From: Halichondria panicea
Taxonomy: Eukaryota > Porifera > Demospongiae > Suberitida > Halichondriidae
Assembly: GCF_963675165.1 (NCBI RefSeq)
Contig: NC_087390.1
Coordinates: 1,879,501-1,943,500, forward strand
DNA: 64,000 bases
Direction of reading: 5' to 3'
The notes beneath the pieces are model-generated. The model was given only the letters and a program-made list of their open reading frames with translations. It did no database searches and was not told where the DNA came from. Both the position numbers and the translations under genes were made by a program. This document shows positions 16,513 to 63,306 of this stretch, piece after piece (within the stretch, counting starts at the first letter, position 1; every line of letters begins with the position of its first letter).

Positions 16513-19500
16513 ACATATGCACCCTTCAATAATGGTTACAGCTCTACAGTTTAATTTTTTTAACTATAGTGTACGTATAATCCTATAATATAGACCACCC
16601 TCACTCTTCCCCTGTATCCCCAGCCTCTCACTGATGCTACTGGGTTGTATCCTGTGTTTCCAGTGGAGGTAGGAAAAGACGAATGTGTCGCCACGCTCAA
16701 AACAATGGCCTTGACAACAGCTAGCAACCAGCAATTTATTGGTGAGCATAAATAAATCTGCTATAAGAAAGTGTTGATTAGAATTTTCTTAAATGGCAGG
16801 TGAATGTCGTCTCCGTGGTGATGATGATGTCACTGGAATAGGGCCTCCGCTGTATGAGTCTCAGACACTGACTGACGCTGGAATCAGTCCTGGACAGAGG
16901 ATCATTCTGGAATCAGGCCAAGCACCAACCAGTAATCAGGTGCAACCATATATAATTGCATAATTATGGTGCCGCTTTTATAATTACATTAAATGTAGCG
17001 AGACTATAGTATATATAATTATTACAAAAACAAATGTTATAAAACAAATGTTATAAGTATGGTGCTATAATTATGGGGGGAATGTCCAGGGGCGCTTAAG
17101 TACATGTAAAAGCGGCCCTGTATTTCATTGGACAGCTAAATTTAATATTTCCGTCCTGGCTGCGGGATCTCTGCAGGTTGCTCTCAATTGTCAGCTGTTG
17201 AGCGCTGGTGTGTCGAGTGTGGGTGTGTGTGAGGTGATCCTGGGGAGGGATGTGACTGTAAGGGAGTGTATGTGTGTCATGGTGACAGCCCTCGGACTGA
17301 CGGGTGAGCTGGAGCTAGGGGAATACCCTAAACTACACCTCCAGCATTTCCATTAGTATATCTGATCACATTTGACTATAATAATTATTATATATATACA
17401 TTAATAATGTTGTCTTAATTCTCGGCTAATGTGTGTGCTTCTTTAGAGGTCCATTTTACGTATCTATCTAATATTAGAAGTACTCAATGCATATAATTAT
17501 ACCACTGTATATGTAGGCGGAGACTGGCACCTGCAAAGGACCAACTGGTGCGGAGAAGCAGCTGACGTGTTGGAAGATGAGGTGTGTGCATGCATGGAGG
17601 CAGCACCTGCATGACTGTATAGTACAATCATGCAGTACAGTGCAGTAACTGTATAGTACTGGCCGGGTTAGGGTTAGGGTTATCTTCTCTATACATACAC
17701 TGATGTGTTAATAGTTTGCCAACTGGTGGTGTTATTTTACTAGGATGCCAGTCTGGAACAGGAGAGACTGAAGTCTGGTGACGTACTGCTCCTTGCAGAA
17801 GGAAGACTACCTCCCAAAGTGAGTGCACTGTTGTTCAGTAATGCATACAAAATTATTGTAAATGGATTTCACACGTGTACATGCATGTACATGTATGTAT
17901 GCAAAATGACAGATTAATTATGACATCAGTATTGTTTTTACCACGCCCACCCCCTCATACATGTGCAGGGTTTTATTCGTCTCCAAGTGTACCTCTACTC
18001 CCCTGAGTCCAGTCCCTCCCCCCACCCACCAGCTAACCTCCCTCAGGACGTACGTTCCCTAGCTGGGGTTTAACACACATGTTCTGACAGTATGATCACA
18101 CAAACTACGTACAATGTACATGTATGTAGTATTTTTAGTAGCCCCGCCAGATGCTTTCTCATCTTGCACAGAATTCTGTCACACACCTCACTCTTCACAC
18201 CCCTCCACCACACACCCCCACAGATCCCCCTCCACCTGGTCCCCCCATCCCTCTGCCACCCCCTTGTTCCCGGACAGCTGGACGAGGTCGGTGTATTAGA
18301 GATCAGTAAAGAGGCCACTGTCGAGGAACTCAAGATCACCATCCTTACATTACCCGCTGTAAGTCATGTGACAGTCATGTGGTAAAATCCCGCTGTAAGT
18401 CATGTGACAGTCATGTGATAAACTTTTTTATATCTCCTAGATTCAAGTAGTAAACCATTAAAGTTCCCTGTATTATAGTGGCCATCTTGACAGGCAAGCA
18501 AGCAAATCTGTAGACTTTCAATTGTGTATTTTTTGCGGCACCGAATTATTACAGTTCTTTTAGAATGGTTTATAGACTCAGGTGTTTGCTAAGTTACCCC
18601 CCCCCCCCTCCACAGATGGAGAATATGACGGTGCCGTTGCTAGGGTTACTGAGAGTGAGGGAAGTGGTGAATGGCAGACCAGCCAAGATATTCAAATTAC
18701 ACAACCACACTTTGAGGTACAATACGAGGGTTATTGATGTCAGTAATACATGTAGTTATTACAATGTAGTTTGTACTTAGTGTTGGGAATCTGTTAGGGG
18801 CATAGTCTGTTTAATAGTGTGTACATATAAGATATACTACACCTAAGAGGAGGATATGCACTCATAATATATTCCCCGCTACTGTGGTTACTCCGAGGCG
18901 TAGCCGGGGATGTATCCATGGTAGCGGAGGATATAGGGGGTGCATATCCTCATAGTACATGTAGGTGTGGCATATCTGACTTATACCACGTGACTGCAGC
19001 ATTATAAAAGGACCTCCCCCTAGCAACAATTCAATCCACGATGCAAACTGCAAAAAAGAACAAGACTATGCCGGATTTTGCAACCGTCAAAGAGCTAGTT
19101 GAGCAACACGTCGACTCCTACTGATGCTCGAGAGCTCCCTTGGTCCAAGCGTTGGCCATTCGACGTCCCTTACTGGAGTTGCAAGCTTTTTTTGGATAAA
19201 ATGTGTCTAAACCACGCCCAGTGTACATATCCTCCTCTTAGGTGTAGTATATCTTTTAATTGAGACCAGTAATATTATTTCATATGGCTATGTATATAGG
19301 CTACGTCTATTTACTAACCAGTCCCTATTCAGGACCAGACGTTAATTACACTCATAATTAATTATGTTGGATCATCAATTTAACTTTCAAGAATAGTCAA
19401 AATTCACACTAATTGCTAAGATACAGTCACGGTATAGTAACCAATGTTGTTTACTATTTAGAGAGCCTTCACTTTCATAAACAGTTTGAACTTGAGACAG

Positions 19501-22500
19501 TCGTCTTTGAGGTACTGGGTGTTTGTGCCAGCACAGTAACCTAGGCGATCCAGAGGACAGAATTTGTACGAGTCACCAAAACATATTCTATTCTCCTTCA
19601 AAATTCTTGTTTCCGTTCCTATGTAGTGTCCATGGTCACCCAGCTGGTTGAGCATCTGTAGGATAGATACACCTTCTGTTTTGGCAGCAGCATCGCGTTT
19701 ATAGATGCTGACTGTCAAATGTGTTCCATTAGCAGATTCAGCACCATTTGTATACACACAGAATGAGAACCTCCATCCTTTTGTAGTAAACTCTCCACCA
19801 TTCCAGTATCCATAGCCGCCTTTTGCTTGTTGTTTCGTAAACTCAGTGAGAGTAAACTCGTGGCAGGAAAACCCTTTCAGTAGCAATAACAAATCATTCT
19901 GTATCTTCACTGTGTTGGCTTCCATCGTGACCTTTAGGTCACTGACCTTTGTGTCAAGGTTTCTAGCTTGTTGATCAGCCTTGGTATCAACTATTGCCTG
20001 TAGATCTTGGAACTTGGTATCAAGATTTTCAAATTTAGTAGCAACTTTTGTGTGTAGATCATACGCTTTTTCCTTTTGTTGTTGGAATTTTGTATCAACT
20101 TTTGCGTCTAATTGTTGAATCTTGGTATCGATAGTATTGCCTTGTTCCTTCACTCGTTTCTGCAAGTCGACTATTTGCTGGTCTTTCTCCTCCATTTTCT
20201 GGTGTAGCTCTCTCGTTAGTTGCAGGTTGAGGAGGGTGGCTGTCAGGAGGTGCTGTTGGACACTCTCTGTCATGTGACCCACCAGATCTCTTCGAGGAAC
20301 CTTCACGTCACATCCAGCTCCAGCAAACTTACACTCCACAAGTTGTAGGGGGCACTCCAGAATGTGGCTATCAGCTTGGCAGCGAGGGAAGGTACCAATC
20401 TCACATTGGTTGGGACAAGGCAGGGGGTAGTTGTCACAGCAAGGGGTGTGGTTATTTGTTCCAATATCGTGGGTGGACTCAAAATCGCAATATTGGCACT
20501 TCCAGGGACGTTTTAGGCAGGAGGTGGTGTGGTGATTCAGGTCCCCCAGTTCCCCTGTCCACTCACACCCACTCTTCTTGTGGGGACAACGAACATTCAA
20601 TTTATTGATTGTGTTTCGTTTGAAGAACTTGTCTTTTAGCGTTTTAAAGGGAGCATTGTTACACATAGGACAAGGCTTGCCATCTCTGATGATCCTTTGA
20701 GCAGCTTTCTCTGAGATGTGCTGTCCACAGCAGTCGGTTTGATGTGGCTCCACCAGAATCTCAAGGGTAACTGGACAGTACAAGTCTTTATCAGGTTGTT
20801 CAACAAGATCGTAGTCAGGTTCAGCTTGCTGGGTGATCTGTTCTGGGGGATGGGTAGCAGCTGGTTCTTGGTTCACAGAGTTAGAACAGTCACTGTTACT
20901 GGTAGCCATATTTAGGCTGGGTTAGTGTTAGCAAGCAGCCACTCCCTCGGTTATCTGTGGTGTGTGTGGTCATCGTAGTACATTACTGGTGGTAAATGGC
21001 ACAATGCTTGATGCACATTGATAGTTTTTTTAACTGAGGCATGCTCTGAGTTATAGATGTGTTATTTTAAGCACATGCTCAACTACAGTACTCAAATTGA
21101 AGCGCTTTTCCAATTATGCGAAGGATACTGAGGCGCGTGGGCGGCCACGGGTATAGTAGTCGTCTGGTTTGTTTGTCTGTAATGAGTGAGTCTGCTTACC
21201 TGGATGCCACAGCACTGTGTTTACAGTATTGATAGCTTTTAGACTAGTTTTAATAGTGGAAAATTTTGATGTTAAAGCCTCGTTGCATGTCGAATAAAAA
21301 CGAGCAAAGCTAAATAAGAAGCTTGAACTTGCACGTTTGGCAGGCTTAATTGGCAGCTAGCTAACTAAACGCGGCCTTTATTCAAACTAGACTACGTATT
21401 TGCAGCTGAAGTGATCCTGTACCAGGAACAATGGAAAAGGGTCACTAAAGTAGAAAGTAGAAAATTGGACTGGTTTGTTGTTTAGGGTAACTCTCGGTCC
21501 GGATCCTCCAAGGAGCCATACTTCTCTAAGACTCCAGGATTCTTTGCAGTGATCCTAGTCCACAGTACATGTCTCATGATCTCATGTAGGCTTACCACTA
21601 AAACTCTATTCTCATGGAATTATGCCATGATTCCAGTAATCGATGGCTATAATGTTTTATTACGTTTAAACACGAAGTAAGTACGGTTTTGCTGGTATAT
21701 AGTATATACACTCATCTGATGATAAAATTAATTAATCGCTACAAGATACAGTCACAGTGTACTTATACTAACTAAGAGTGTGTAGATCTACTCTTAATTT
21801 TAGAGAGTCTTCACTTTCATAAACAGTCTGAACTTGAGACAGTCGTCTTTGAGGTACTGAGTGTTTGTGTCAGCACAGTAACTTAGGTGATCAAGGGGGA
21901 AGAATTTCTTTGAGTCGCCAAAATATGTTCGACTAACCTTCAAAATTCTTGTTTCCGTTCCCATGTAGTGTCCATGGTCACCCAGCTGGTTGAGCATGTG
22001 TAGGATAGCTACACCTTCTGTTTTAACAGCATCATGCTCTTTATTGACGAAGAGTGACAAATGTGTTCCAATACAAGATCCGATACCTCTTGTAAACACA
22101 CAGAATGAGAAGCTCCACTCTTCTACAGTAAACTCTCCACTAAACCAGGGTCCATATCCGCCTTGCGCTTGTTGTTGTGTAAACTTAGTGAGAGTAAACT
22201 CGTGGTAGGAAAACCCATTTAGCAATAACTTCATCGTGTTGGCTTCCATCCTGACCTTTAGGTCACTGACCTTTGTGTCAAGGTTTCTAGCTTGTTGCTC
22301 AACCTTCACATCGAGATCTTGGAACTTGGTATCGACTTTAGTATCAAGATTTTCCAATTTAGCAGCAACTTTTGCGTCTAATTGTTGAATCTTGGTATCA
22401 ATGTTATTACCTTGTTCCTTCACTTGTTTCTGCAAGTCGACTATTTGCTGATCTTTCTCCTCCATTTTCTGGTGTAGCTCTCTCGTTAGTTGCAGGTTGA

Positions 22501-25500
22501 GGAGGGTGGTTGTCAGAAGGTGGTGTTGGACACTCTCTGTCATGTGATCAGCCAGATCTCTTCGAGAAACCTTCATGTCACATCCAGCTCCAGCAAACTC
22601 ACACTCCACAAGTTGTAGGGGGCACTCCAGCAGGTGGCTATCAGCTTGGCAGCGAGGGACGGTACCAATCTCACATTGGTTGGGACAAGGCAGGGGGTAA
22701 TTGTCACAGCAAGGGGTGTGGTCATTTGTTCCGATATCGTGGGTGGACTCAAAATCGCAATATTGGCACTTCCAGGGACGTTTTGGACAGGAGATGGTGT
22801 GGTGGTTCAGGTTCCCCAGTTCCCCCGTCCACTCACACCCACTCTTTTTGTGGGGACAGCGAACATTCAACTGGCGAACTTTTCTCCTGAAGTACTTGTC
22901 TTCTTGAGTAGCCATGTTGTCTTGTTTGCACATTGGGCATGGTTTTAGTTCTCTGGTGAGTCTGTTGGCAGCTTGCTGGGAGATATGGTGGCCGCAGCAT
23001 GTTGTTTGGAGTGGCTCAACAAGTAGCTCTAAGCTCACAGGACAGAAGTAGTCTTGGTCAGGTTGTTCAACAAGGTCGTAGTCAGGTTCAGCTGGCTGGG
23101 TGATCTGTTCTGGGGGGTGGGTAGCAACTGGTTCTTGTTTCCTCACAGAGTTAGTAGAATCACTGTTACTGGTAGCCATATTTAGTGTTAGCAGGAAGCC
23201 ATTCCCTCAGTTATCTGTGGTGTGTGTGGTAAAGATAATCAATGACGATATACATTGTTTTTGTGCGTGGTAGATCCGTACCCAATTGTCCCGCTATGTC
23301 AACAAGTTAGTGGTGTTCATTCCAAGCACTATAAAACCTTTGCAACCATCTAGTCAATCTTTCCCCTATTGCAGACGTCTGAAGCTGTCGTCAGGGTCAA
23401 AGGTCGCCTGCACAGTGCTGCCCCAAGAAGAGGATCTACAGTAAGTGAAGTGATACTGTATAGCATTGCAGTGTACAGTAATACGTTTAGTTTCCACTTA
23501 ATACGTATTTCCTCATCAAATTTATCGTTCTCTGTTCTAAATGCCTCCATGCAGGACTACTACAGTGGTGTTCAACCTGTGTGTGAGGTTACCTGGAGAG
23601 AGGGGATATGGACCACACACTGAGGTTGTGGTGGCTCTGTAATTAATAGTACATGTAGCTGTTGATAATCCTAATGTTGATTGCAGTAATACTGTTAGTA
23701 CCGATGCTACTGCATGCACAGTAATGCTGTTATCAGCAATAATTTATGTGCATGCAAAATGTGTACCCCAACTGATATTAAATACTAGTATACTATGTGC
23801 AGTGTTTTCCCATATCGTGCACCACTTCCATTCCAAGTTCCCTATACAGGTGGTGTATGATACGTCCCATTCCAGTACCCCATACTCACTTTGTGCCCAC
23901 GTGTCCCAATACCTGGACATGCCTCTGGACAGACTGAGAATGGCCAAGCACAAACTGGATAGTTTTGAGTGGATCAAAATGCAAGACTCTCATCAGGTGC
24001 ACATGCAAATAATGGTCGAGTGAAATACTCTTAGCTTAATTACTCTGAAATCTTTTGAAGAACCTGTTTTTTGCGTTCACCCTATTCGTACATACGTACT
24101 GAGTATAGCCAATGATGTTGCTGACGTGCATAATTATGTGAATTTTTGAGTTAATAAAATGACAATGTATTTATCAGGCATTCCTAGTTTATGATACGTA
24201 CTACTTTTACAGCCCAAAGTAGCGTGATTTGGTAAGGGGTCATTGTGGTAGAAAACACAATATAGCATGAGAATCCTTATGTTTTAAATATGCAGGCAAC
24301 TCGTCCTCGTGCTTGTCCCTGTATGTTTCAAAACACTTGGTCTCATGCTGCTATTACATAGAACCACTGTGCACTTCTCAATTAGTGCGTAATTAGTACC
24401 AATTTCTCACCTGTATTTACAGCTGGTGTCAAACTGCCCATAAATATTTCTGAATTTACAATTTACACAGAGTGACTCCAGCAAGCGAGGTCGTAAGAAA
24501 GGTCAAGCAAAGGTCAACATTCGCAACTCCCCTATCATGCTCAAGGACGGGGACACTGTCGGAGTGAAGGTGTGTGGGCGTGAGGGGGTGGATGTTGAAG
24601 TAGTATGACTCTAACTTGAGAAGCCCTTGTTTAAAAACTGCTCAACAGTTAGAAGCCAGTCCAAAGTGTCTGTACATGCAGTCAGTCTATTGTGGCTACC
24701 TAGTAGACCCTCAGCCAGCCCAATACATGTGTTTGGACCTGTGTTAGCGAACCACGTCTTCTTGTTCTTAGCCACAGTTGGTCTGCTCAAGATGACCTCT
24801 ATAACCTGCAATTAATAGCTAGAGCATAATAATTATTGGTTACCTTATAGACACCTACGTAAGCCATTAACAGTTCATAGTTGTGGTCTATAATTTATAG
24901 CCAATAGTGTAGAAGGTCACGTTATGTTTTCGTAGCTCTGTTCTTTGCCCTATTGAATAGCTATCCAAACAAGCCACCTTAATTGGATGTGTGGGTGGGT
25001 GTAGGGTCATATTGACATTGTACAGTATCCCCCCAGGGAACAAGCGATTGTTGTAGTGGCTGTGCATTTAGCAAAGTTAATGTGTTATCTTAATAAGCGA
25101 TCATTATTATTATTAGTACCCTAACCTGTAGCCAATAGTTACGCCTTGCAGTATTTGAAAATTGTATGGCCTTTACGGAATTTATTTTGATTTCAGCGAA
25201 CAATAGTTTTTTAATTAATTACCTTACCATTGGTTCCTATGATGTCATTACTGATAAATTATATCACAAATGGTTGTACTTCCATAGGAAGTTGCTATGG
25301 TCACAGGACAAGTGAAGTAGTGAAGTAGGGAAGGTAGAGCTTCCTGATTTGGGACAGCTTACAATTGTTACTGTTTGCCAGCTAGCTTGCCTTTATGCTT
25401 TCCCTAATAGAGTAGTGAATCTCAAGTGTGTGTGTGTGTATAGAATATCAGGAATTGAATCCACGAAATTCAAGTTATGGTAGCTGAAAGAATCCCCGAA

Positions 25501-47116: not shown

Positions 47117-49818
47117 ATGACTGCAATCAGCAATATGTCACTAGTATTACTTCTCCTTATAACAGTGATAGTCAAGTCTAGAGGAGAACCTATAAGTGAG
47201 TAGACACTAGTCAAAATGTGTTGAAGAGCCTTGTATTGAAATATACCACAGATATGTTCATACTATAGACAGTAACACTAGATTAGCTAGCGTGTAAATT
47301 ATTTTGCTGTTTTGTTCTGTTCCATTCTAGGTCTGTCAACCATTCGATACAAATTCACCACCTGTGGTCACGGTGGTCGAATAGGTCCTACGTATGAGAT
47401 GTGTCTAGGCGAGTACACTAACACCTCGATTCTCGCAAATCCAGACAACTTCTTTTTCTACAATAAATTGCACTCCAGTGGAGAATATTTCGCAGGGGGA
47501 CAAGGATTCAGAATTCCCACAACTGGCCGTTACAATGTGACCGTAGCTGGTGCTTCTGGAGGAAGGGGAATATGTAACATTGACAAAGGTAAAGGCTTGC
47601 TGTGGAGAGGGGAATTGAACTTTGTAGCCGGTGAAGAGCTTTTGATACTTGTCGGTCAAAAAGGAAGAAGTCCATGTGAAAGCGAGGATTTTGTGGGCGC
47701 TGGTACATTGTGTCAGAATCCACCATTAAACGAAACTGAATCCGCTGTGTGCAACGAAACTTGGTACTCTAGACTTTTACTGACTGTTCCAGACGACAGA
47801 GCTGATTTTGTGTACGCGAATATAGGAGGTGGTGGCGGAGGAGGGGCTAGTTTGATCCGATTGATTAATCACACTTCGGACGGACCAATACCAGCACAGT
47901 TTCCTCTTTTAGTGGCCCCAGGGGGCGGAGGAAGTGCATGTTTAGCTGTGTACAATGTGACCAATCAAATACAAGCAACATTTCCTGACAGTTTAACAGA
48001 TATGGAACAGTACGAGTTTTTTATGAATGCTAAATATTCACTGTATGACCCTGAAGATTCGGGCGGTCTAGGAAGAAGAGGATATGTTTACGAGCAGTCT
48101 AGCTTCAGGGGGGGTGCTGGTGGGGGGTACTTCACTACTCGGAATTCTGGTGATGTTGACGGAGGTTATCTAAATGCTGAAGAAAATTTTGCTGAAGGTG
48201 GCTTTGATTGTTCAAGACAGCTCTTTGATTTGTTGACATATATAGACTCTACAGATATTTACGGTGGTTTTGGTGGAGGTGGTGGGCAATGTGGGGGTGG
48301 GGGAAGTGGTGGTGGTTTCTCTGGGGGGAGGTCAACAGGAGCGGACCACTCGTTACCAGGACAAGGTGGTTTCTACTATAGAGTTGGTAGCATTACCAGT
48401 GATTATCAAGACAAGAAAGAAACAGTGGAGACAATTAGTGTTTCTTTGAACAAGTTTGACGATGGATTTGTAGAGTTTGTGTTGAGAGACTGTGGATGTG
48501 GTGAGATGTGCATTATCAATGAAGTTGCCGACACTTTTGAATGTTTTTGTCCTAATAATGAAACGGTATTAGCCCTCAATGGATTCGATTGTGCAAAAGG
48601 TGATATTTGTTTGCATGATAATATTTCCCTGCCGGTATGATAGGAAACAATGCATGCTTGTTAATCTGTACTTATATGCATAACTCATGGAACAACCGTG
48701 ATACAATAGGTGTAGTAAGTTAAGCAACCTATTATGGTCTTGTTTTTATTGCAGACATTGTATTGGATTTTAACGCCTCCTCGGAAGCAGCTGTTCTCAT
48801 CAAAGGCATAACCTTCACACCTGTCTACTTGCCTCAGGCTATCAGTCTGTTTGCAATGAGCGGGGCTGCCTCAATGAACGATAACACAACATCCTGTACC
48901 TTAGTGTTCTTTGGAGCTGATTCAAAGCCTGCCTTGGCCACCAATGTACTCACTGACAGGTACAAATACAAATACACATCATAAAAATTAATCTATAGGC
49001 TGTATATACGTGTGTACAAATATATGCCCTTCATAAGAGATTAATCTATAAGCTGCATGTACCTGTTCTATTATAATTATAGACTATACTATTTTTACAT
49101 TCTTGTAAGACAGGCTATATACATGTACAGTTTGTATTTCAATAAATTATTTCCTATGCAAGAAATCTAAAATTATTATCTGTCACTCCAGAACAAGCAG
49201 TAACCTTGACCACCTCTCAGTGCTCCACTCTGATGCTGCTAGCACCTACTCTCAGTCTGCCTATCACAAGTACCTCCCCCGGGCAGTCACGGTAACAGGA
49301 GGTGTACTAGTGAGCGAGGGACACTGTCAGCTGCTGATGGAGCAAGTTAATCTCACCATCAGCACTCAGAATGTTTCCTCACGTAAGACCTCCTTTTGGC
49401 ATAATGGGTTACAATTGTCTGCATAGTGTACCATAATGACACTGTATGGTTTGTTCACCATTATAATATTATGCCGCTATAGGTGTACAGTGATCTCTGC
49501 ATACACACATGCACCCTTACATTTCCTGGCAATTAGCTTATATTCGTCTCCAGTGCCTGTTTCTGCAATTTCACTGGTACAAGACTATAGCGACAATGAG
49601 CTCATTTCTCTCGCTCAAACAGTATTTGGACTAGATACAACCGCTGCATCAACAGGACAAGATACGACAACAGCTACTGAATCTGCAACTAAAGTGTTTG
49701 GAGAGTTTTCGGAGGTTGTGTGGTCCCTGATTGGCATCAGTGTGTTGTTCTTTATTGTACTAATCTGTGTGACTCTTATAGTGATTGTCAGATACACTTG
49801 GAAACGGTCAAGAAGTGG
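47117..49818 (+). other. Receptor 1 exons 1-5: signal peptide, ectodomain and TM
   Basis: Exons: 47117-47195, 47331-48599, 48755-48959, 49192-49382, 49554-49818. The single 1269-nt exon 2 holds the whole glycine-rich domain and the EGF-like piece. Exons 3-4 hold a module with several NxS/T sites (DFNASSE, NDNTTS, NLTIST) that also exists, diverged, in receptor 2. Exon 5 has a Thr/Ser-rich stalk and the TM. Confidence 0.88.
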
Positions 49819-52644
49819 GTGAGTTCTTAACAAACACAATAGTATATAGTCCAAGTTATTATTTGAAAATTCCCTCGTAGAAAACTAGTGATAGAGTTAC
49901 AACCACCGCCACACCTTGATGCCAGCGCAGGGAGCATGATTCCAAACGCTTACTACCACGCATTCTCAGTAAGTGTATTGAGGTTATGGGAAAGACTTGT
50001 TATGGAACATGCAGTGCTTATAATTTTAAAACTTCATGTAACTATTCTTTCTTCTGTAGGTTCCACCAAATGACCCGTTTGTGCCTAACCAATATATTCG
50101 GGCCTGCCCCCCTAAGAAACTCGATCAACACGACTACGAGATTATCAGCTTCTCTGATTTTGACGATTCTTCCAACAGAAGAACCACAACTGATGTATGT
50201 CCGCTTGTATCCTTTCTTTCACCCGTATTATACCATTAATAATCAGTATACACAATCTTTCATCTGTTCATTATTATAATATAACTATTGCGTCTCATGC
50301 AGCATTAATTTTTTGTTACCCATGCAGTACAATGCAATCACTGCGTCTGCACGAAACTTTCACACAAAATTTGGAGTGACTGCTCCCGTTCATGACTTCA
50401 CCTCCTACAACAAGCACAGGGTGGGAGACCTGGGACAGGTAGGTCATATAGGAGACATGGTAGCACCATAAAGAATGTACTGTCATATAACTGTCTGTGT
50501 GTATACTGATGCAGCTATGGGAGTACCCTCGAGGGAACCTCATCTACCTGAGGGAGTTGGGAGAGGGACAGTTTGGAAAAGTCCTTCTCATGAGAGCAAA
50601 AGTGAGTACATAATATTATTATATGCCTGTGAATGCTGAGCTGCATGCTTGTGATCACATTTGTACTTTTAACTCTAACTTACAGCATCCACATGTATTC
50701 ACAAAGCGAACAACACAGTCTTAAACTCTATAACTTACTCCTCATGCTTCCAGGGTATAGCCAACTTCCAGGGAGCGATCCCAGTGGCTGTGAAAACCCT
50801 CTCATTTCGTGCTCCTAACATGCTCCAGAAGTTCATTGAAGAGACTAACCTTATGAAGAAGTTTTGTCATCCAAACATTGTCAGTTTACTAGGTAAGACA
50901 TTTGATGTGCACTACATTGTCAATAGAAATAGGATGAAGATCAATGAATTTATATACTGTAGAACCTCGATTTTCCGGAATCTTGGTTTGGCTCAAAATG
51001 GGCTTGTCCCTGAATGTGTATGGGCAATGAAGAGCCGTTACCATGGACACAGACATAAGTTTTTACGGTCGTGCATGCACAGACACCCATGTGCACTAAA
51101 TTTGCACTGCTGTTTATCAACTAAGTGGGCGGATCGAGGCGTGGTTGATCCATTCGATTATCCGTCATGTTCAGTTATCCGGCCTGCCTAGGTGTCCGAA
51201 TAATCTAGGTTCTACTGTATAGTTAAATGAAGTCTGCGTGCATGAGAGCTTTTGTTTTATCCCGGTTAGTTTTTGCATGGTATATAGACGATTTATGCTT
51301 TGACCTTTGCCTCTCAACATCAACCTTTTCAACAATTCACGCCGTATCAATCTACACAACACACTCACTATGCAGGAGTAAGTAGCCATGACGTAAACGA
51401 GGACAGTGCTCCCCTGATGATACTGGAGTACATGCCGTATGGTGACCTGCATGGATTCCTTAAAAAGAACAAGTCAGTAAATTGTTGTATTGGTTTATGG
51501 AAATTTGAATGTTGGTGAATTATTACAGGCCCCAGCCCGATAACCCTTCCACTATAACTCCAGCTCACTTCTTTAGCATCGGGAGAGACGTAAGAGAGAA
51601 ACCAATAATTATTATAGATCTATTACGTAGGACAATAATTGCTTTATTAATTAACTACCAGTACGTTTATCTAAAATTGTTGAATGCAGGTTGCTGAAGC
51701 TCTCTCATTTCTGGGCTCACAAGGCTATGTGCACAGGGATGTGGCTGCTAGAAACTGCCTAGGTAAGGTTTAGTGCAAGAGTAACGCTCGAATAATGGTT
51801 GTTGAGTTAATGATCTTTACCATCGCTAGCTAGTTCAATAGTGGTTTACTGTAAGCACGCTCTCTACCATCTCTCCTCCCAGTGGGTCCTGACCTAAGCA
51901 TCAAGATTGCTGACTTTGGGCTCTCTCGAGCTGTGCAGACAAAGAACTACTATCGAGTGGAAGGAAAGACAGTGCTACCTGTGAAATGGATGGCTCCAGA
52001 ATCACTGATTTATGGAATCTTTTCTACTGCCTCAGATGTTTGGTAAGAAAGAAATGGTGGTAAGGCTCTAAATCTGGATTTATAACACACCAGTTAAATC
52101 CTAAGTACAGTTTACATCTATTGGTTCCATCTAAATTAATTTGTCGTGCATTTAGTATGCTTTACACAACAGGTCGTTCGGTGTTCTGCTTTGGGAGGTG
52201 GTGTCGTTTGGAGAACTACCTCTGGATGCTTTGACCACCGAGGAACTTATCGAAATGGCTGAGACCAAAACACTGTGCCATCAAAGGTAACCATGCATAT
52301 GTAACCACAGCTACTTGTGCAAAATTTTCCTCCCGGTGACCAGTTCATAATTATTATTGCTTTCATTTCTATCTTTGTTTAGAACACTGTATTTGGTCAC
52401 TATACTGCAAGGTTGTTTAATTCTATCTGTGTGTAATAACCCTTATATATACAGCGAGGTCTCACAATAAAATGTCCTCTTCTTCCTCTGTAGACCTGAG
52501 AATTGCCCTGAGGAGATTCACATGGTCATGTGCAGCTGTCACCAAAACAACCCCACAGACAGGATCGGGTTTGAAGAAATCTTAAGGAATTTTTCAAAAG
52601 ACAATATTGATGACTATTTTGAGAAAACAATCGAATCCATTTAA
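47117..52644 (+). CDS. Receptor tyrosine kinase 1 with ALK/LTK-type glycine-rich ectodomain (16 exons, 1074 aa)
   Basis: This is a single-pass cell-surface kinase. Phase-consistent exons run from ATG 47117 to TAA 52642. There is a signal peptide at 1-26 (hydrophobic SLVLLLLITVIV). The glycine-rich domain, about 28-410, has [32 protein letters not shown] and GGFGGGGGQCGGGGSGGG, the pattern of the ALK/LTK GR domain. A short Cys-rich EGF-like piece follows (CGCGEMC...FECFCPN), then a second glycosylated module, a TM at about 637-660 and a juxtamembrane region with Tyr (NQYI, DYEII). The tyrosine kinase has GEGQFG at 797-802, VAVK with Lys824, HRDVAARN with Asp926, DFG with Asp944, YY at 956-957 in the activation loop, and WMAPESL. 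All catalytic residues are present. There are no MAM or LDLa domains, so it is not a full ALK. Its ligand is unknown. Confidence 0.92.
49881..52644 (+). other. Receptor 1 exons 6-16: juxtamembrane and kinase domain
   Basis: Exons: 49881-49968, 50060-50194, 50328-50438, 50515-50601, 50754-50892, 51376-51472, 51529-51589, 51690-51762, 51883-52042, 52173-52286, 52494-52644. The kinase exons 9-15 have lengths 87, 139, 97, 61, 73, 160 and 114, the same as in receptor 2. The last exon is different and ends DYFEKTIESI shortly after the kinase fold, so there is almost no C-tail. Confidence 0.9.
50957..51217. mobile_element. pogo/Tigger-type MITE in a receptor 1 kinase intron
   Basis: The ends CTGTAGAACCTCGATTTTCC and AATCTAGGTTCTACTG are flanked by TA. 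At 261 bp it is clearly related to 7951-8228, sharing CTGTTTATCAA..AAGTGGG and the GGTGTCCG(G/A)ATAATC end. It lies between receptor 1 exons 10 and 11 and makes that intron longer than the same intron in receptor 2. Confidence 0.85.
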
Positions 52645-52834
52645 TTTTAATTGAAGGCGGTTTTTACTTGTGCGAACCTTTGACATTCCCCCCATTCATA
52701 GTGTTCTTTTTTATATTGCTGTCAGTGTGTTGTTTTACTACTTAGTCAACAGTATGCTGTAGCCCTTCAAAACATAGGAATATATGATTTACTCACACAA
52801 ACACACGTGCACACAAACATACAGCCATGTCTAT
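52645..52834. other. Very short convergent spacer between receptors 1 and 2
   Basis: Only 190 bases separate the two stop codons, so the 3' UTRs must be very short or overlap. It contains a short imperfect CA-rich stretch (ACACAAACACACGTGCACAC). This spacer is itself duplicated at 61362-61731. Confidence 0.85.
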
Positions 52835-55800
52835 CTATAACTGTCCACTGTTTGTTAATAGCAATGGCTGCTCACTCTCTGGTATAGCAGTCAATGAGGA
52901 GGAGCTTGGCAGTGGTGGTCTCTTTTTGACCACGTTGAAAAGTTCCATGGCGATAATCTCAGTGAATGACGGCCTCTCATCCACCTCCAACTGGTGACAG
53001 TCAGATACAAGTTCCCACAGGTCACCAGGGGAACCCAGAGGTCTGAATATAGACAAACAACATTTATAAAATTGCTTATTGTGATCACTGTATACGAAGA
53101 TATGAATACAACAAGCACGGTGTGGGTGCACCTAAAACAACCACTTAGCTTGGCTTCTATGCATGCCAACCTTGGTATAGGTTTCATAGGAAGAGAGAAA
53201 TGAGAAATTAAAGAACAGTAGCTTCATTAATAAGGGAAAGCATGCAAGGGCAATAGAAATGTAGATAGAATTGTTCTCGGCGATGGCTACTACACAGTTA
53301 TACTGACTGGGAATGAGTGACGTGGTTACACATCTATTAGTGCGTCCATGGCAGCAGTATCAGCACTCGATCAGTACAGCTAGTATAATTTGACGTAAGT
53401 AGTACGTAGCTACTAGCTACTAAATGTTTGTACCTGGTGTGGTGAAGACGTCCATTCTGCGCTGCATCAACAATATCTTGAGTACTCATATCAGGCAAAG
53501 CCTGTTGCCCAAACGTTAGAATCTCCCAAATCATAACACCATAAGCCCTAGAAACAAAAAGAAACAATAGTTTCCAACTCCAAATATGATTCGTTAAGGC
53601 CATACCGATTACAACTTGGTTATATAGAACAACTTGTTTCTAACATAGCTTTAAAGATGCATGCTCTATAACTGTGAACCCAAGGCTTAGTATTAGCATA
53701 ATTATACTCACCAGACGTCAGAGGCTGAAGAGAACTTTCCGAGGAGCAGGCTCTCAGGAGCCATCCACCTCACAGGTAACACCGCACTACCAGCTACTCT
53801 GTAGTAGTCCTTGTTGTTCACTCCTCGTGCCAGACCAAAGTCAGCTATCTTGATCTGGAGTCCAGAGCCAACTAGAAGGGGGATAAAACAGTTAAACTTT
53901 CATTCTGAAACTGTTCATTAATACATGCATATATAGCCAAGTCTCGAGCTACAACTCCTAATACGCACAAAACAGTTATAGCTTCAATGGCAACTTTCAC
54001 GCTTTGGTCTGTCCTAAAAAATGACTCACCTAGACAGTTTCTCGCTGCCACATCTCTGTGCACATACTTGTGCTGGGACAGAAACTCTAGACCATGAGCA
54101 ACCTGTAACCAAGGAAACATGTAAATTGGTCAGTCAAAATACACACTCACAATCTACATTAATATTCGGTTAAAACACATAATTATGGTTGATACTCACA
54201 TCATAGGCAAAGGTGTAGAAATGCAGCTTCTTCAGGGGTGAGGGCTTGTTGGGACCAGGTCTGCATGTATGAAGGGAAATCACTATTGACAGACTGTCAG
54301 TGAGAGCTGTCTATTGTGGTCACTCTGTAAAATAAATTAATGGCCCCTAAGTCACTTGTTAGCAGGTCACCTCTTTGTTATAGCCCGTGACTATTGGTCT
54401 GCCCAATGGTGCATGACTGCTATTTTATAACAGCTTTCCCTCTGTTCAAAGCTAGACCACATTATTAAAACAGCTGGAGAGGGTTGCAGTTGAACATCTT
54501 TCAACAGATTAAACGGAGGGGGGGGGTTGCAGCTCAACAGCCGTAACTTTAGTATCAAAATTTTCCTGAATGTCTAGAATCAATATTTTGAATTGCATTC
54601 CAGAGTGAAAGTCGGCATTATGGTGCATTATAGCCTACTAGCAGACCATATTAAAAGAACATAATATTTCCAGTACATGCAGCTGATATCGATATCATAT
54701 ACCAAGGAGGCGATTTTACCCCTAAAACTTAGTGTTATTTGTGGTATCAAATTAGGTAATCCAATGTATAAATTATAGGAATGCACAGATAATATCGGTT
54801 ATAATAATGATGTCATACCCTCGTGCTGCACAGCTAAATACAGCCCACGTGCATGAGTATAATAACCTAGTTTTATGCACAATAGCTGTAGCTACCACAG
54901 CTATATGTGTTATGGAGTGATGTGCAATATTGACCTTCACCTGTTATCTATTAAGAATCCATGGAGGTCTCCATACTGCATGTACTCCAGGATCATCAGA
55001 GGAGCACTGTCTTCACCTTCCTTCTGTCCAATGAAACCTGAATGGAGATTTAGCTTTAATCGATTATGGGCTACGTTCATGTCAAATACTTGAAGGTACA
55101 ATCATTCTGTGCAAATAAAACAAAGAAAACAACGCTTCACACTGTATGAAGAAAGCTTGTGAAAATAGCTAAAACATGCAGCAAATGTTTGAGCAACATT
55201 TAATTGGATAGAGGTATACTCGTATAGACAGGCTGTATATGCATGTGACGTGCACACAGAGTACATAGAGCATCTCACCTAACAAGCTGACAATGTTTGG
55301 ATGGGTAAACTTCTTCATCAGTTCAGCTTCCTCGACAAACTTTTGTATAACAGCAGGGTCTCTACTGGTGAGTGTCTTCACAGCCACTGGAATCTTACCC
55401 GTGTAGCCAGCTATGTCCTATAATTATGTGAAACAATAATTATTGTAATGTAATTCTGTCATTATGAGGCCCGGGCCCTTCTATAAGATTTCAAGGAGGC
55501 TATAAATTATAATCCACTGCTAGAACACTGTGTATATAAACATACTATGACACTTACTCTAGCTTCCATGAGAAGAACTTTTCCAAACTGTCCTTCCCCT
55601 AGTTCTCTCATGTAGGTCAGTTTGGATCGAGGGTACTGCCATTGCTGTGTATGTGTGTGTGTGTGGAGAGAGTATAATTTATGCACTGAGGTTTACTGTT
55701 GTCTCTACTATATAAAGACTACATTACCTGCACATGGGTGTGGAATCGCTGTCTGTTATAGGTACAGAAATCCACGGATGGCGTCTTGATTCCATGTATA

Positions 55801-56296
55801 GGCTGGAACAGGGCACTGGAATGAGACCCAACCACCAGATCAGCTTCACCATCCTAAGTAAGAAATCAAACGGTATATACATTCACACAAAGGGTAACTG
55901 ATAAGATGTAAAAAGTGTCAAGGAAACGGTACGAGCATCCAGGCAAGAGGGCCAGATAGTTACTTTAATAATGATACTTTAATAATGATACTCAAACAAT
56001 CAGTTTTCCCCTTAATCTCACTCGTTACAAATAATAACTACCACCTCTGATTGGTCAATGTGCAACGTTTCGTATCCCGGCTCCCCAATATTAGTGGTTA
56101 CTCTGCGGCTGGGAGTCTGCAGGTGAAGAAGCTCACAATATTTAATTCACAATGGTAGCAATATGAAGTCCATACAAGTGTGGGTGTGTGGCTTACCCTT
56201 TGATACCTCACGTATGCAGAATTGAGCTCTAGAGACTCTGTTTTCAGGTAAAGGTTGTTTTGGTGTCTGTCTTTAGAGAGGTGATTGGAAAATGTT
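52835..56296 (-). other. Receptor 2 exons 6-16: juxtamembrane and kinase domain
   Basis: Exons in gene order: 56296-56197, 56116-56045, 55853-55728, 55644-55558, 55417-55279, 55037-54941, 54260-54200, 54102-54030, 53871-53712, 53547-53434, 53042-52835. Exons 9-15 match receptor 1 in length one for one; the juxtamembrane exons 6-8 do not (100, 72, 126 against 88, 135, 111). Confidence 0.9.
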
Positions 56297-58964
56297 CTGT
56301 GCAGTAGTGCAAATTGACATAAAAACCATGTAACGACAATTCTAGTACGGATTGTGACAAAATACTCATAAGATACTGACTATGTCATTGTAGCTCATTT
56401 AACACACAATATAATTATTTACGTACATATTTTTTCTTTGTTGGATCTTGTAGTAGACCACACCTATTATTACGGCACTCAAGACCACCAGCAGAGTTAC
56501 CCCCAGTATTGATCCGACCACTGCACCAATCACTCCACGATCGTTGCTAGGCTTTGTTGCGCTCTCTTTGGTTCTTGCTATACTGTTGAGCAAGTTAGTA
56601 GAGATATTCCTGATCTGAAAGTCCACATCTATAAGATAATGTTTCAGAGATAATCATAACAGCTGCTATTAAGGAGCGTATTTTTAGTAAGTTGCCGAAG
56701 GAATCACCAACCAGCGATATAGAAACACTAAAAATTATCATACAAGTGTCATGTGCAGGATATGCTAATGGCTATAGCTTTAATGCAGCACCTGTATCTG
56801 GAGTAATGATGCTGATATTAGCTTGAATTGTGTTTGTTGCTAGTCTACAGTCCCCATAGCTCAGTAGTACCATGGTGGTGATCGTCACAGGACTCTGCAG
56901 TAGCCTCACAGGGTCTGTTTTCTGTGTGATGTTGCCAGTAGCGTCCAATGAGATTACAGAGAGGGTGTTGATTGTACCAGACTCTCTGTTCGTTGTGTGT
57001 GTAGAGTGAGGTTGTCAATACATTGTTTGGCTATCACACATAATACAAAGAACCTAGTATGGAGGTATACATAAGGGAAACATAGAGCACAATTCTTAAT
57101 GAATGTGTGCAATGGCAATGACCACACAATATACAATGGTCATACATATCAGTACATCGATCATTGTGAACGGACAATCTTCTAAATGCAATAATCTCAC
57201 CTGATGCTTTCCGACACTACTACTTGTTCCAAACTCTCTCCAAACAGGACAATCAAGCAATCCTCCCCCTGTGGCGTGTCTCCAACCTGACGTTTTGTCA
57301 CCCTGACCGGCTCAACAGACACATCCACACTCAGACTGAGCAGTCCTATGGCTGCAGTGAGGTGAAGCTGTCGAACGTTGTAGCTGTCTGGGATGGGAAT
57401 AAGTTCTCCTTCTTCAACTGCTAGCTCTTTTTCTGTGAAATAAAAATGGGAATGAATCTTGAATCTTAATAATTTTAATACCTTCTCGGTAACAGTTGCT
57501 TCCGTCCTCAGCCAGGAGAGTATCATTTGGACACAAGCACTCAAACTGCTTCTCCTCAGGGTACATCACACACTGTCCAACACACTCACAGTTGGAGGAC
57601 ACTATCTCAACATATCCATCACCATCATTGTGATCCCTCTCCAGCATTCTTACAACAGGTAACCCTGTGAGATTGAATACCCCAACATCGCCACCGCCTC
57701 CTGGTATGGTGTTTAATTTCTCGACAACGTGCCCTCCTGTGTAGCCTCCTCCCCCTCCTCCAGAGCCACACCCACCTCCACCACCACCATAGCCACCCTC
57801 TACATCAGAAAACACACGAGATTCACTTGGAATACTTGATGAACAATCAAAGCCACCTTGTGCAAAGTCATCTGCTTGACTCAATAGTTTTCCATCCACT
57901 TCCAACAAAACAAATCCCAACACTGAATTCCAGCCTCCACCAGCTCCAGATGAGGTTAGATCTATGCTATTGGGTCTTATTCCCCTGCCACCTACTGGCC
58001 AGATTAAGTAATATTGATCGAAATGAGCATTCACATGAAAACTATAGATCTCCTCACTAGTACCATTACTCGGATAATTCAGTAAGTAGTTTGAAAGTTC
58101 ACTTTTCAATGATTCAAAACCCAAAACAGCTGAGGCCCCTCCACCTCCAGGTGCTACTACAATCGGCAAATTAGTGAATTCTGAATCATTTTTTCTCCTC
58201 GGCCAAATCATGCTAGCTCCACCTCCACCACCACCACCATTGAAAAGATCTGCGTTGCTGCCTTTTGCAAGTGTTTCATTTATCCAATCAACTTTGCAAG
58301 CCTCCGCTTCTGCAAGATTTCTTGGTCTTGGTTGTTGGCATATCGGGTTGACTGCATTATCGGGTACATCACACACACTGGTTCCTCTGTGTCCCACCAA
58401 GATAAGGTACTCGTAGTCAGTAGTCAGTTCAACTTGCATACGAACCACTCCACCCAATCCATACTCGAAATTGCACAAACCCTCACCTCCTCTGGCTCCA
58501 GCAATGGTGATGTTGTAGAGGTCATTTCTTGGTAAGCGAAATCCCTGTCCTCCATCGTATTCATCATCAAATTCAAACAAAGTTTGACCGGATACAATTG
58601 GTGAGTTTATCTGTTTGTAAAAACGACCGCACTCAGGCTCTACCCTGGGGCCATCGTGGTTTGATGATCCGCAGTTGGTGAACCGGTAGGTAATCTCTGT
58701 GAGATCTGTGAAGGTTAGGTATGCATACTGAATTTAGTCAGGCTTCTAAAAGTGTTAGTTGGCTGGAGAGTAGACTAGATATACTCAACTCTATAGCTAG
58801 CTCCACTGAGATAGCTCTATACAGTTGAGAGATAGTACTCTGAGCAGCTAGATCTAGCTGAGCATCAGCCATATGCAAGCAATGCTAAGAAACTTACCCC
58901 TCCTTCTAGCCTGGGCCCTGAATAGAGTGCTTGCCAACAGTAGCAAGGATAGAAGCCAGTTCAT
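52835..58964 (-). CDS. Receptor tyrosine kinase 2 with ALK/LTK-type glycine-rich ectodomain (16 exons, 1051 aa)
   Basis: It is a paralogue of receptor 1 on the opposite strand, with phase-consistent exons from ATG 58964 to TAG 52835. There is a signal peptide at 1-20 ([19 protein letters not shown]). The glycine-rich domain is at about 25-400 ([50 protein letters not shown]). An EGF-like Cys piece follows (CECVGQC...FECLCPND), then a conserved glycosylated module and a TM at about 604-632. The juxtamembrane has GYETLHI, a possible SH2-binding Tyr. The kinase has GEGQFG at 755-760, Lys782, HRDVAARN with Asp884, DFG with Asp902, activation-loop YY at 914-915 and WMAPESL. The C-tail ([20 protein letters not shown]...) is longer than in receptor 1. 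It is catalytically complete. The true start is upstream of the TTG at 58580: exon 1 supplies the signal peptide. Confidence 0.92.
56427..58964 (-). other. Receptor 2 exons 1-5: signal peptide, ectodomain and TM
   Basis: Exons in gene order: 58964-58898, 58705-57482, 57432-57201, 56985-56792, 56628-56427. As in receptor 1, the glycine-rich domain and EGF-like piece share one long exon (1224 nt), and the TM exon is exon 5. Protein identity to receptor 1 is low here except in glycine runs and cysteines, unlike in the kinase, so the ligand-facing part has diverged faster. Confidence 0.87.
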
Positions 58965-61500: not shown

Positions 61501-61529
61501 AAATAAAGATGATTGAGCGAGAATAAAAT

Positions 61530-61715
<186 letters not shown>

Positions 61716-61731
61716 ATACAGTCAGGTCTAT

Positions 61732-63306
61732 CTATAGATGTCCACTGTTTGTAAATAGCGATGGCTGCTCACTCTCTGGTATGGCAGTCAATGAAGCGAA
61801 ACTCGGGAGTGGTGGTCTCTTGTTGACTACGTTGAAGAGTTCCATGGCGATAATCTTAGTAAATGACGGCCTCTCATCCACCTCCAACTGGTGACAGTCA
61901 GATACAAGCTCCCACAGATCACCAGGGGAACCCGGAGGTCTGAACATAAATTAAGAGTTAATAGTCTATTAGTAAATTGCTCACTGTATGAGATAATATT
62001 ATAACTAAACAAACATTTCAAAAATAAAAACATCAACTGATAAGAATGACCTATATACAGCTAAGGAGGGAACGGCAGGGGCGATATAAAAATTGTTCCG
62101 ATGGCTACTACAAAGCTAGAGACTGGGCATCAGTGCATGGAAAAAACTTAGTAACAGCACTATACACTAGCTATATACCTGGTGTGTTGAAGATGTCCAT
62201 TCTGTGCTGCATCAACGATATCTTGAGTACTCATATCAGGCAAAGCTTGTTGCCCAAACGTTAGAATCTCCCAAATCATAACGCCATAAGCCCTGTAAAA
62301 AAATTATATTGCAATACTTCAAGAGGACATAATTATAGCTGAGTCTGTACTAAAGATGCTCCATGTTTTACGTGAAACCCACTTACTAGTTAATAATTAG
62401 TTACACTCACCAGACGTCAGAGGCTGAAGAGAACTTTCCGAGGAGCAGACTCTCGGGAGCCATCCACCTCACAGGTAACACGGCACTGCCAGCTACTCTG
62501 TAGTAGTCCTTGTTGTTCACTCCTCGTGCCAGACCAAAGTCAGCTATCTTGATCTGGAGTCCAGAACCAACTAGAAGGGGGAGAAAACACTTTATTCTGA
62601 AACTGTTTCTTGTAGTCATCAAGCTAAATCTCCTAATGCATACGCACATAATAATATAGTTTCCATGGCAACTTTCACGCTTTGGTCCGTCCTATAATCC
62701 AACCAATTACAGTAACTCACCTAGACAATTTCTCGCTGCCACATCTCTGTGCACATACTTGTGCTGGGACAGAAACTCTAGACCATGAGCAACCTGCAAC
62801 CAAGGAAACACGATATGTATAGTCAGTCAAAACTACACCATGCACACTCATACGTATAAACTAATTATGTTCTGGACAGCAAAAAATACTTATTTTAGAA
62901 ACTGTCCGGGTATAATTAGAACAGATTTGTATAGAGCATGCGATTAAGTGTCCGGAATTATTAGAACAAGCAAGCACCTGCATGCGAGCTAGTAGAACAG
63001 TGTGCGACTGAATAGTTGCACTAGCTATCTAAAACTAGCTATACTCCAACTGAAGCACTCCAAGTTAGTTGCCGTCTATGAACGTAACTCAACTTTCAAG
63101 GTATTGTCCGGATATTTAGTAATAGTAAAGCACCGGATTGTCCGTTGTATTAGAACAACAAAAATTCCCCAGAAGAGTGTCCGGGGTAATTAGAAGTGTC
63201 CGATAAATTAGCGGTAATACATTACATGCAGTTGTTCATACTCACATCATAGGCAAAGGTGTAGAAATGCAGCTTCTTCAGGGGTGAGGGCTTGTTGGGA
63301 CCAGGT
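61732..63306 (-). CDS. Receptor tyrosine kinase 3, 3' half only (runs off the right edge)
   Basis: Five exons in gene order: 63306-63246, 62793-62721, 62570-62411, 62292-62179, 61939-61732, with lengths 61, 73, 160, 114 and 208 identical to the last five exons of receptor 2. They encode RPGPNKP..., HRDVAARN, the DFG loop with YY, WMAPESL and the C-tail ending LFTNSGHL. Introns are also similar to receptor 2 in sequence, so the copy is recent. Catalytic Asp and DFG are intact. The Gly loop, catalytic Lys, TM and ectodomain would lie beyond 64000 if present. No matching exon 11 is found between 63307 and the window end. It could be a whole gene or a fragment. Confidence 0.88.
62870..63215. repeat. 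Cluster of degenerate TGTCCGG-n-TTAGAAC motifs in a receptor 3 intron
   Basis: The intron between the HRD exon and the one before it contains five to six spaced copies of a unit like TGTCCGGGTATAATTAGAAC (near 62904, 62950, 63105, 63137, 63178 and 63197). The same intron in receptor 2 lacks them. This is probably an inserted repeat with internal sub-repeats. Confidence 0.65.

Follow-up and report, generated by a model that had tools for sequence, protein, structure and literature searches.

The receptor tyrosine kinases ALK, which is a cancer receptor in humans, and LTK have ectodomains in which TNF-like, glycine-rich and EGF-like parts follow one another (PDB 7nx3, 7n00, 7nx0), and ALK has in addition a MAM-LDLa-MAM N-terminus that, according to the available part of one report, is not present in mammalian LTK (PMC10605310). 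In a survey of holozoan tyrosine kinases the ALK family is dated to Bilateria, and its kinase motifs are inferred to be older than its distinctive extracellular domain (PMC8662651); in the text of that survey, as far as available, the distinctive domain is LDLa and the term "glycine-rich" does not occur. ALK and LTK have been traced within Bilateria in a study whose main text, in its available part, holds none of the words "sponge", "Porifera" and "Cnidaria" (PMC7851593). No description of an ALK-type ectodomain in a sponge was found in the titles and abstract openings among the matches listed, which cover few subscription papers. Here we compare with these systems a locus of the sponge Halichondria panicea, lying in a stretch of 64,000 nucleotides (the window, C14:1879501-1943500; the genome searched comprises 131 Mb in 39 contigs), where a pair of receptor kinase genes, A and B, had been predicted to carry ALK-type glycine-rich ectodomains.

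The locus taken as a whole probably represents a tandem family of five receptor tyrosine kinase genes with a head homologous to that of ALK and LTK, a kinase that is not demonstrably ALK, and exchange of heads between paralogues, a reading to which we assign a probability of roughly 0.7.

The receptor head and its homology to ALK and LTK

The whole head of A and of B is encoded by a single exon of 1.2-1.3 kb, which is joined by splicing directly to the signal-peptide exon, just as the original prediction placed the glycine-rich domain straight after the signal peptide. When compared with PDB sequences (phmmer), the head exon of B finds ALK (7nx3) at 1.8e-25, LTK at 3.3e-6 and nematode scd-2 at 6.2e-6, the next and unrelated match standing at 0.27, and the head exon of A finds LTK at 3.8e-10 and ALK at 2.2e-8, with the best unrelated match at 0.044. 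The matched stretches in B comprise the TNF-like half that precedes the glycine runs, and then the second glycine block through the EGF-like end; in A the match to ALK and LTK covers only the first half of the head. The Pfam profile ALK_LTK_GRD (PF12810), which takes in many other glycine-rich proteins, is matched in B at about 34-35 bits (cut-off 24.5) and finds no match in A.

These matches are not an artefact of glycine content, because scores remain when glycines are masked and glycine-fixed shuffles fall far short. Against an ALK ectodomain of 342 residues, 27 of them not taken from a database record, the heads score 91.6 bits (B) and 33.6 bits (A), far above the best of 200 glycine-fixed shuffles each (17.2 and -1.4), and with all glycines masked 28.7 bits are left in B and 9.9 in A. 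Each of the six TNFL-GlyR cysteines of ALK has an aligned counterpart in B-E (the further members of the cluster are described below), as have five of them in A, where the sixth lies one column off; each of A-E also has six EGF-like cysteines, 5/6 of them in ALK's columns. Since the TNF-like half and the EGF-like cysteines are conserved as well, the resemblance takes in the whole TNFL-GlyR-EGFL block, which goes further than the original prediction. Judged by sequence, the heads of A and B thus contain the TNF-like plus glycine-rich supradomain and the following EGF-like domain of ALK/LTK, and are homologous to this ligand-binding block.

Across the aligned block B is 36% identical to ALK, and its head contains a 17-residue run as in ALK. 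There are also clear differences: the sponge heads have two extra cysteines (three in A), the segment between the glycine blocks is longer and variable, a two-cysteine stalk stands between the EGF-like part and the membrane, and the MAM-LDLa-MAM N-terminus of ALK is lacking, as anticipated, with no MAM or LDLa match listed by Pfam up to E 1 in either A or B. An AlphaFold model of the head from two window sequences was unusable (mean pLDDT, the predicted local distance difference test, 28.8), which counts against the reading, the fold being assigned through sequence homology.

Gene structure and the cluster on contig C14

Genes A and B are complete receptor tyrosine kinase genes in convergent (tail-to-tail) order, with about 190 bases between their stop codons. 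Both were recovered where they had been predicted, each as a single open frame in 16 exons: A on the + strand at 47117-52644 (ATG at 47117, 1074 residues) and B on the - strand at 58964-52835 (ATG at 58964, 1041 residues). All introns are GT-AG (15/15 in each gene), their phases are identical between the two genes, and kinase exons 9-15 have the same lengths in both (87, 139, 97, 61, 73, 160 and 114). The exon models were built from homology and splice signals, and splice scores are weak at some B junctions around the stalk. Both genes show the general features of receptor tyrosine kinases, namely a signal peptide (called by eye), one transmembrane segment and intact kinase residues, in the order signal-peptide exon, head exon, stalk, transmembrane segment, juxtamembrane region and kinase. 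The parts, in window coordinates, are as follows.

47117-47195, + strand: gene A exon 1, start codon and signal peptide, spliced directly to the glycine-rich exon
47331-48599, + strand: gene A exon 2, TNF-like and glycine-rich (~47333-48487) and EGF-like (~48488-48599) parts (phmmer, shuffles, alignment)
48755-49382, + strand: gene A exons 3-4 (48755-48959, 49192-49382), stalk next to the membrane, carrying two invariant cysteines (exon model, alignment)
49554-49818, + strand: gene A exon 5, transmembrane helix (exon model, hydropathy 3.28)
49881-50438, + strand: gene A exons 6-8, juxtamembrane region (exon model)
50515-52644, + strand: gene A exons 9-16, tyrosine kinase followed by a short tail, stop codon at 52644 (Pfam PF07714, 1e-78)
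58898-58964, - strand: gene B exon 1, start codon and signal peptide (exon model)
57482-58705, - strand: gene B exon 2, TNF-like and glycine-rich (58703 to ~57594) and EGF-like (~57593-57482) parts (phmmer ALK 1.8e-25, Pfam PF12810, shuffles)
56792-57432, - strand: gene B exons 3-4 (57432-57201, 56985-56792), two-cysteine stalk (exon model, alignment)
56427-56628, - strand: gene B exon 5, transmembrane helix (exon model, hydropathy)
55728-56266, - strand: gene B exons 6-8, juxtamembrane region (exon model)
52835-55644, - strand: gene B exons 9-16, tyrosine kinase followed by a tail, stop codon at 52835 (Pfam PF07714, 6.5e-77)
61730-63306, - strand: gene C 3' exons (kinase C-lobe), ends approximate; the C head lies outside the window at C14:1946054-1947367

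The proposed succession of an EGF-like piece, an unnamed glycosylated module and a complete kinase is borne out by the EGF-like cysteines, by N-glycosylation motifs and by the Pfam kinase matches. The stalk of A and B finds no PDB match (best E 0.29), and its seven matches in the genome all fall inside this C14 cluster; the stalk of E is too divergent to be found by the genome search.

The "pair" of the original prediction has proved to be part of a larger family. A genome search with the A and B heads finds five open head exons, all on C14 and within about 34 kb (A at 1926791, B at 1936917, C at 1946054, D at 1949402 and E at 1956406), the cluster extending past the window end. In addition, a decayed copy, P (C14:1947925-1948320), lies outside the window between C and D; it shows a head fragment with five TGA stops and a remnant resembling the last kinase exon. 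No further head match in the genome is better than E 0.008, the value of a single match, with a stop, on C13, and searches of prokaryote genome contigs and of viral contigs gave no relatives, in keeping with an animal gene. C, D and E have open kinase exons that match those of A and B in length, except that the best borders of exons 11-12 of E are off by a few codons; the model of E covers head and kinase, and a transmembrane-like segment lies between them. The ratio of nonsynonymous to synonymous divergence (dN/dS) in the kinase is 0.07-0.20 in six pairs. The heads of B-E are 80-84% identical in protein, and the head of A is only 38-40% identical to that of B. A long (CA)n simple repeat occupies window positions 61517-61894, immediately 3' of gene C.

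Placement of the kinase

The kinase of this family is of the receptor type and, as has been partly shown, belongs to the insulin-receptor-like (IRKL) group without being demonstrably of the ALK family. With the IRKL receptor kinases (Trk, MuSK, ROR, DDR, ROS1, INSR and ALK) the sponge kinases have in common a complete receptor tyrosine kinase catalytic domain, LPV[KR]WMAPES after the activation loop and 35-45% identity. The nearest vertebrate kinase by identity is ROS1 for B, C and D (43-45%) and TrkB for A and E (42-43%), and identity to ALK is 36-39%. Among PDB sequences the B kinase scores 200.5 bits with TrkB, 200.1 with ROS1, 199.1 with TrkA, 195.1 with INSR, 193.1 with MuSK and 190.6 with ALK, and the A kinase 217 with TrkB, 210.1 with IGF1R, 209.7 with MuSK, 208.8 with INSR and 204.6 with ALK; a tandem EGFR chain, counted twice, tops both lists. 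The human ALK kinase used as query scores 318 with ROS1 and 282 with IGF1R.

Two kinase trees were built. The first has 34 rows, namely the five cluster kinases, 22 vertebrate references and seven of 30 kinase loci fetched from the same genome, the 23 omitted being mostly near-copies or divergent Src-like kinases; the second lacks seven of these rows (EGFR, PTK7, EPHA2, FAK, TIE2, B and C). In both trees the cluster kinases form a clade of their own (support 100/100) on a long stem. In the first tree this clade branches with Trk/MuSK/ROR/DDR/PTK7 (89/76) and lies outside ALK/LTK/ROS1/INSR/IGF1R (95/87); in the second the cluster sits near the base of the receptor tyrosine kinases with no firm position, again outside ALK/LTK/ROS1/INSR/IGF1R (91/90). 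The approximately unbiased (AU) test weakly rejects a clade of the sponge kinases with ALK and LTK (p 0.037 in the first tree, 0.022 in the second). Furthermore, 12 residues separate the catalytic Asn from DFG in 5/5 sponge kinases, compared with 15 in ALK, 15 in LTK and 17 in ROS1, counts for which the ALK sequence was checked, the ROS1 sequence came from the PDB comparison and the LTK sequence was not taken from a database record, the pattern used having stopped early (reading 10) in at least four reference rows and missed one kinase of the same genome, L022. This insert before DFG may be a defining mark of the ALK/LTK family. In the activation loop the YxxxYY motif, common to other IRKL kinases, is complete in E only (YDKDYY), the first Tyr being missing in A (QTKNYY) and in B, C and D (NNKDYY).

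Several of these results might suggest instead that the receptors are true, fast-evolving ALK orthologues, descended from an ancestral minimal ALK of TNFL-GlyR-EGFL, transmembrane segment and kinase, to which MAM and LDLa were added later while the sponge kinase drifted. The head homology and the YxxxYY loop kept in E would fit such a history. The following points also fit it and weigh against the reading we favour: ROS1, the sister of ALK, is the vertebrate kinase most identical to B, C and D; a grouping of the sponge kinases with ALK, LTK and ROS1 is not rejected (p 0.127 and 0.107), nor is one with the INSR group (p 0.149 and 0.186); the sponge stem, of about one change per column, makes the placement weak; and the reference kinases are vertebrate only, 19 of the 22 not having been taken from database records, although the ALK kinase used agrees with PDB in 303 of 304 residues. 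However, the weakly rejected ALK+LTK clade, the position outside ALK/LTK/ROS1/INSR/IGF1R in both trees, the lack of the pre-DFG insert in all five kinases and the PDB scores, which rank TrkB, INSR/IGF1R and MuSK ahead of ALK, all speak against orthology, and we consider it unlikely, even if it is the best of the alternatives. A specific ALK identity of the sponge kinase is thus weakly rejected, and a wider relationship would stay compatible with the sequences.

A kinase far from ALK and LTK, together with a glycine-rich match no better than to generic proteins, had been named beforehand as grounds for giving up the ALK-type interpretation; the kinase does stand apart in both trees, whereas the head match is specific. 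As for the alternative posed at the outset, an ancestral minimal form or independent shuffling, independent joining fits somewhat better, the kinase tree being too weak to decide. Because the head is ALK-type while the kinase is not clearly grouped with ALK, the former may predate ALK as such. An ALK-type head on a kinase that is not clearly ALK suggests that the head did not wait for the ALK kinase. We tentatively suggest, at somewhat under even odds, that the ALK head is a pre-Bilaterian, exon-coded module that, depending on the lineage, became attached to different kinases and is still passed between neighbouring genes in the sponge. If true, this would be a present-day example of the mixing of heads and kinases in early animals, and it makes testable when, and with which kinase and ligand, the glycine-rich fold began signalling.

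The same genome contains other IRKL-type kinases, DDR-like (a C10 cluster) and MuSK/ROR-like (C9), which differ in that the heads were found only in the C14 cluster, bar the C13 match, and which are 36-43% identical to the A kinase. The C10 cluster (C10:1701723-1940221) consists of kinases with the catalytic domain in one open frame; of 14 loci fetched, two have in-frame stops, and the four chosen for the tree form a group with DDR1/DDR2 (99/97). L022 (C10:45260-46144) carries a long insert where ALK and ROS1 have theirs, between NCLV and DFG, and is possibly a sponge kinase of the ROS/ALK side, yet both trees put it near Trk/MuSK/ROR.

Probable head exchange, ligand and remaining explanations

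A new finding is that, for five of the six pairs that B, C, D and E can form, divergence is much lower in the head exon than in the kinase, as though the paralogues exchanged heads. Synonymous divergence (dS) of the head exon is 0.20-0.28 in all six pairs, whereas the kinase reaches 0.72-1.5 in every pair except B-C, where it is 0.10. Counted as synonymous differences over sites, exon 2 against kinase gives 68/290 vs 83/168 for B-D (Fisher p 2e-8), 65/294 vs 78/168 for C-D (p 8e-8), 67/291 vs 107/165 for B-E (p 1e-18), 52/294 vs 106/165 for C-E (p 2e-23) and 66/293 vs 92/163 for D-E (p 6e-13). Compared in 100-base bins along exon 2, E is 68-99% identical to B, C and D, and directly downstream of the exon the value is about 40%; on the 5' side there is a drop with respect to B and C, and a smaller one with respect to D (71-75% for 200 bases). 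The proportion of synonymous differences (pS) within exon 2 ranges from 0.03 (residues 81-120) to 0.53 (residues 221-260), a mosaic as expected from conversion tracts. Positive selection was looked for in dN/dS windows along exon 2 and not found, all full windows of 40 codons lying at 0.23-0.71. We interpret the pattern not as positive selection but as exchange or gene conversion, one border of which coincides with the end of the exon.

Some observations do not sit easily with exchange of the head alone. The B-C pair is reversed (exon 2 57/292 vs kinase 16/170, p 0.0036), the similarity of D to E reaches upstream into the intron, and the E kinase is close to saturation at its synonymous sites. 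The dS of the stalk among B, C and D (0.14-0.29) is as low as that of the head, and therefore exchange extends beyond the head exon; the similarity of D to B and C runs on into exons 3-4.

A tandem cluster with a decayed copy and head exchange would also lead one to think of diversifying recognition receptors, directed at self/non-self or at microbes rather than at growth factors, and the head indeed has a segment (residues ~200-265) of high divergence with indels. However, the dN/dS range given above bears no sign of positive selection in any full window, and the divergent segment is also the highest in pS (0.49-0.53), which points to greater age rather than to faster protein change. We regard this explanation as improbable, more so than ALK orthology.

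In the tandem receptor family that we favour, the head would bind a secreted ligand other than ALKAL, the ligand would bring two receptors together, and the paired kinases would phosphorylate each other on tyrosines of the activation loop and of the juxtamembrane region and tail. The head exon of B, C, D and E is, as a pattern, kept alike by exchange or gene conversion while the kinase, except in B-C, has diverged much more; several receptors might convert one ligand, or closely similar ligands, into different cell responses. On the inner side of the membrane the greatest differences lie in the juxtamembrane region and tail. With a head only distantly similar to that of B, A should read a different ligand. 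The locus is compact and offers itself for the study of head exchange between receptors.

The search for an ALKAL-like ligand that had been called for gave no genome match over the family cut-off in an exon-wise six-frame search with the PF15129 profile, which can miss short genes and did not extend to the Jeb/HEN-1 type of ligand found in fly and nematode. None was expected, because AUG/ALKAL is reported only from vertebrates in the available part of PMC7851593. There were 12 weak matches (best E 0.22), and the eight loci read were taken as noise (a tandem repeat, frames with stops and a collagen-like stretch). Most of the weak matches come from a tandem repeat family with stop-containing frames at C1:1.25-2.23 Mb. 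Three ALK residues that we take to be ALKAL contacts, E859, Y966 and E974, are mostly not kept in the sponge heads: the first column is a gap in B-E and Glu in A, in a gappy stretch, the second holds R, G or T, and the third Asp in B-E and Phe in A.

Convergence on a glycine-rich ectodomain, with no common descent with ALK, is very improbable: glycine-rich stretches are of low complexity and A lacks the Pfam match, but the masked score of B, the shuffle scores and the TNF-like half, EGF-like part and cysteine pattern common to ALK and the sponge heads argue otherwise. Contaminating bilaterian DNA or an assembly artefact, for which no point was found, can practically be dismissed, given five paralogues with differing flanks on one 6.5 Mb contig, B-E heads too divergent for haplotypes of one gene, a B head so far from ALK, and silicatein-type genes in the same genome. 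The sponge origin is upheld by three loci with silicatein-type active sites, consistent with a siliceous sponge: CG[AS]SYAF, whose serine replaces the catalytic cysteine and which we take to be the hallmark of silicateins, is found in 3/18 peptidase C1 loci or stretches read, the four best cathepsin-type loci having Cys rather than Ser in the active site and 3/14 further short stretches the silicatein-type serine.

Elsewhere in the window, an open frame of 500 residues at 12820-14322 (+ strand) has, by eye, the look of a multi-span transporter, although Pfam gives no match for it at 1e-3. The - strand holds three related TRAF-type zinc-finger genes, at 2555-3682, 19458-20921 and 21800-23206; one of them has a sub-threshold MATH match, and they are apparently another tandem family.

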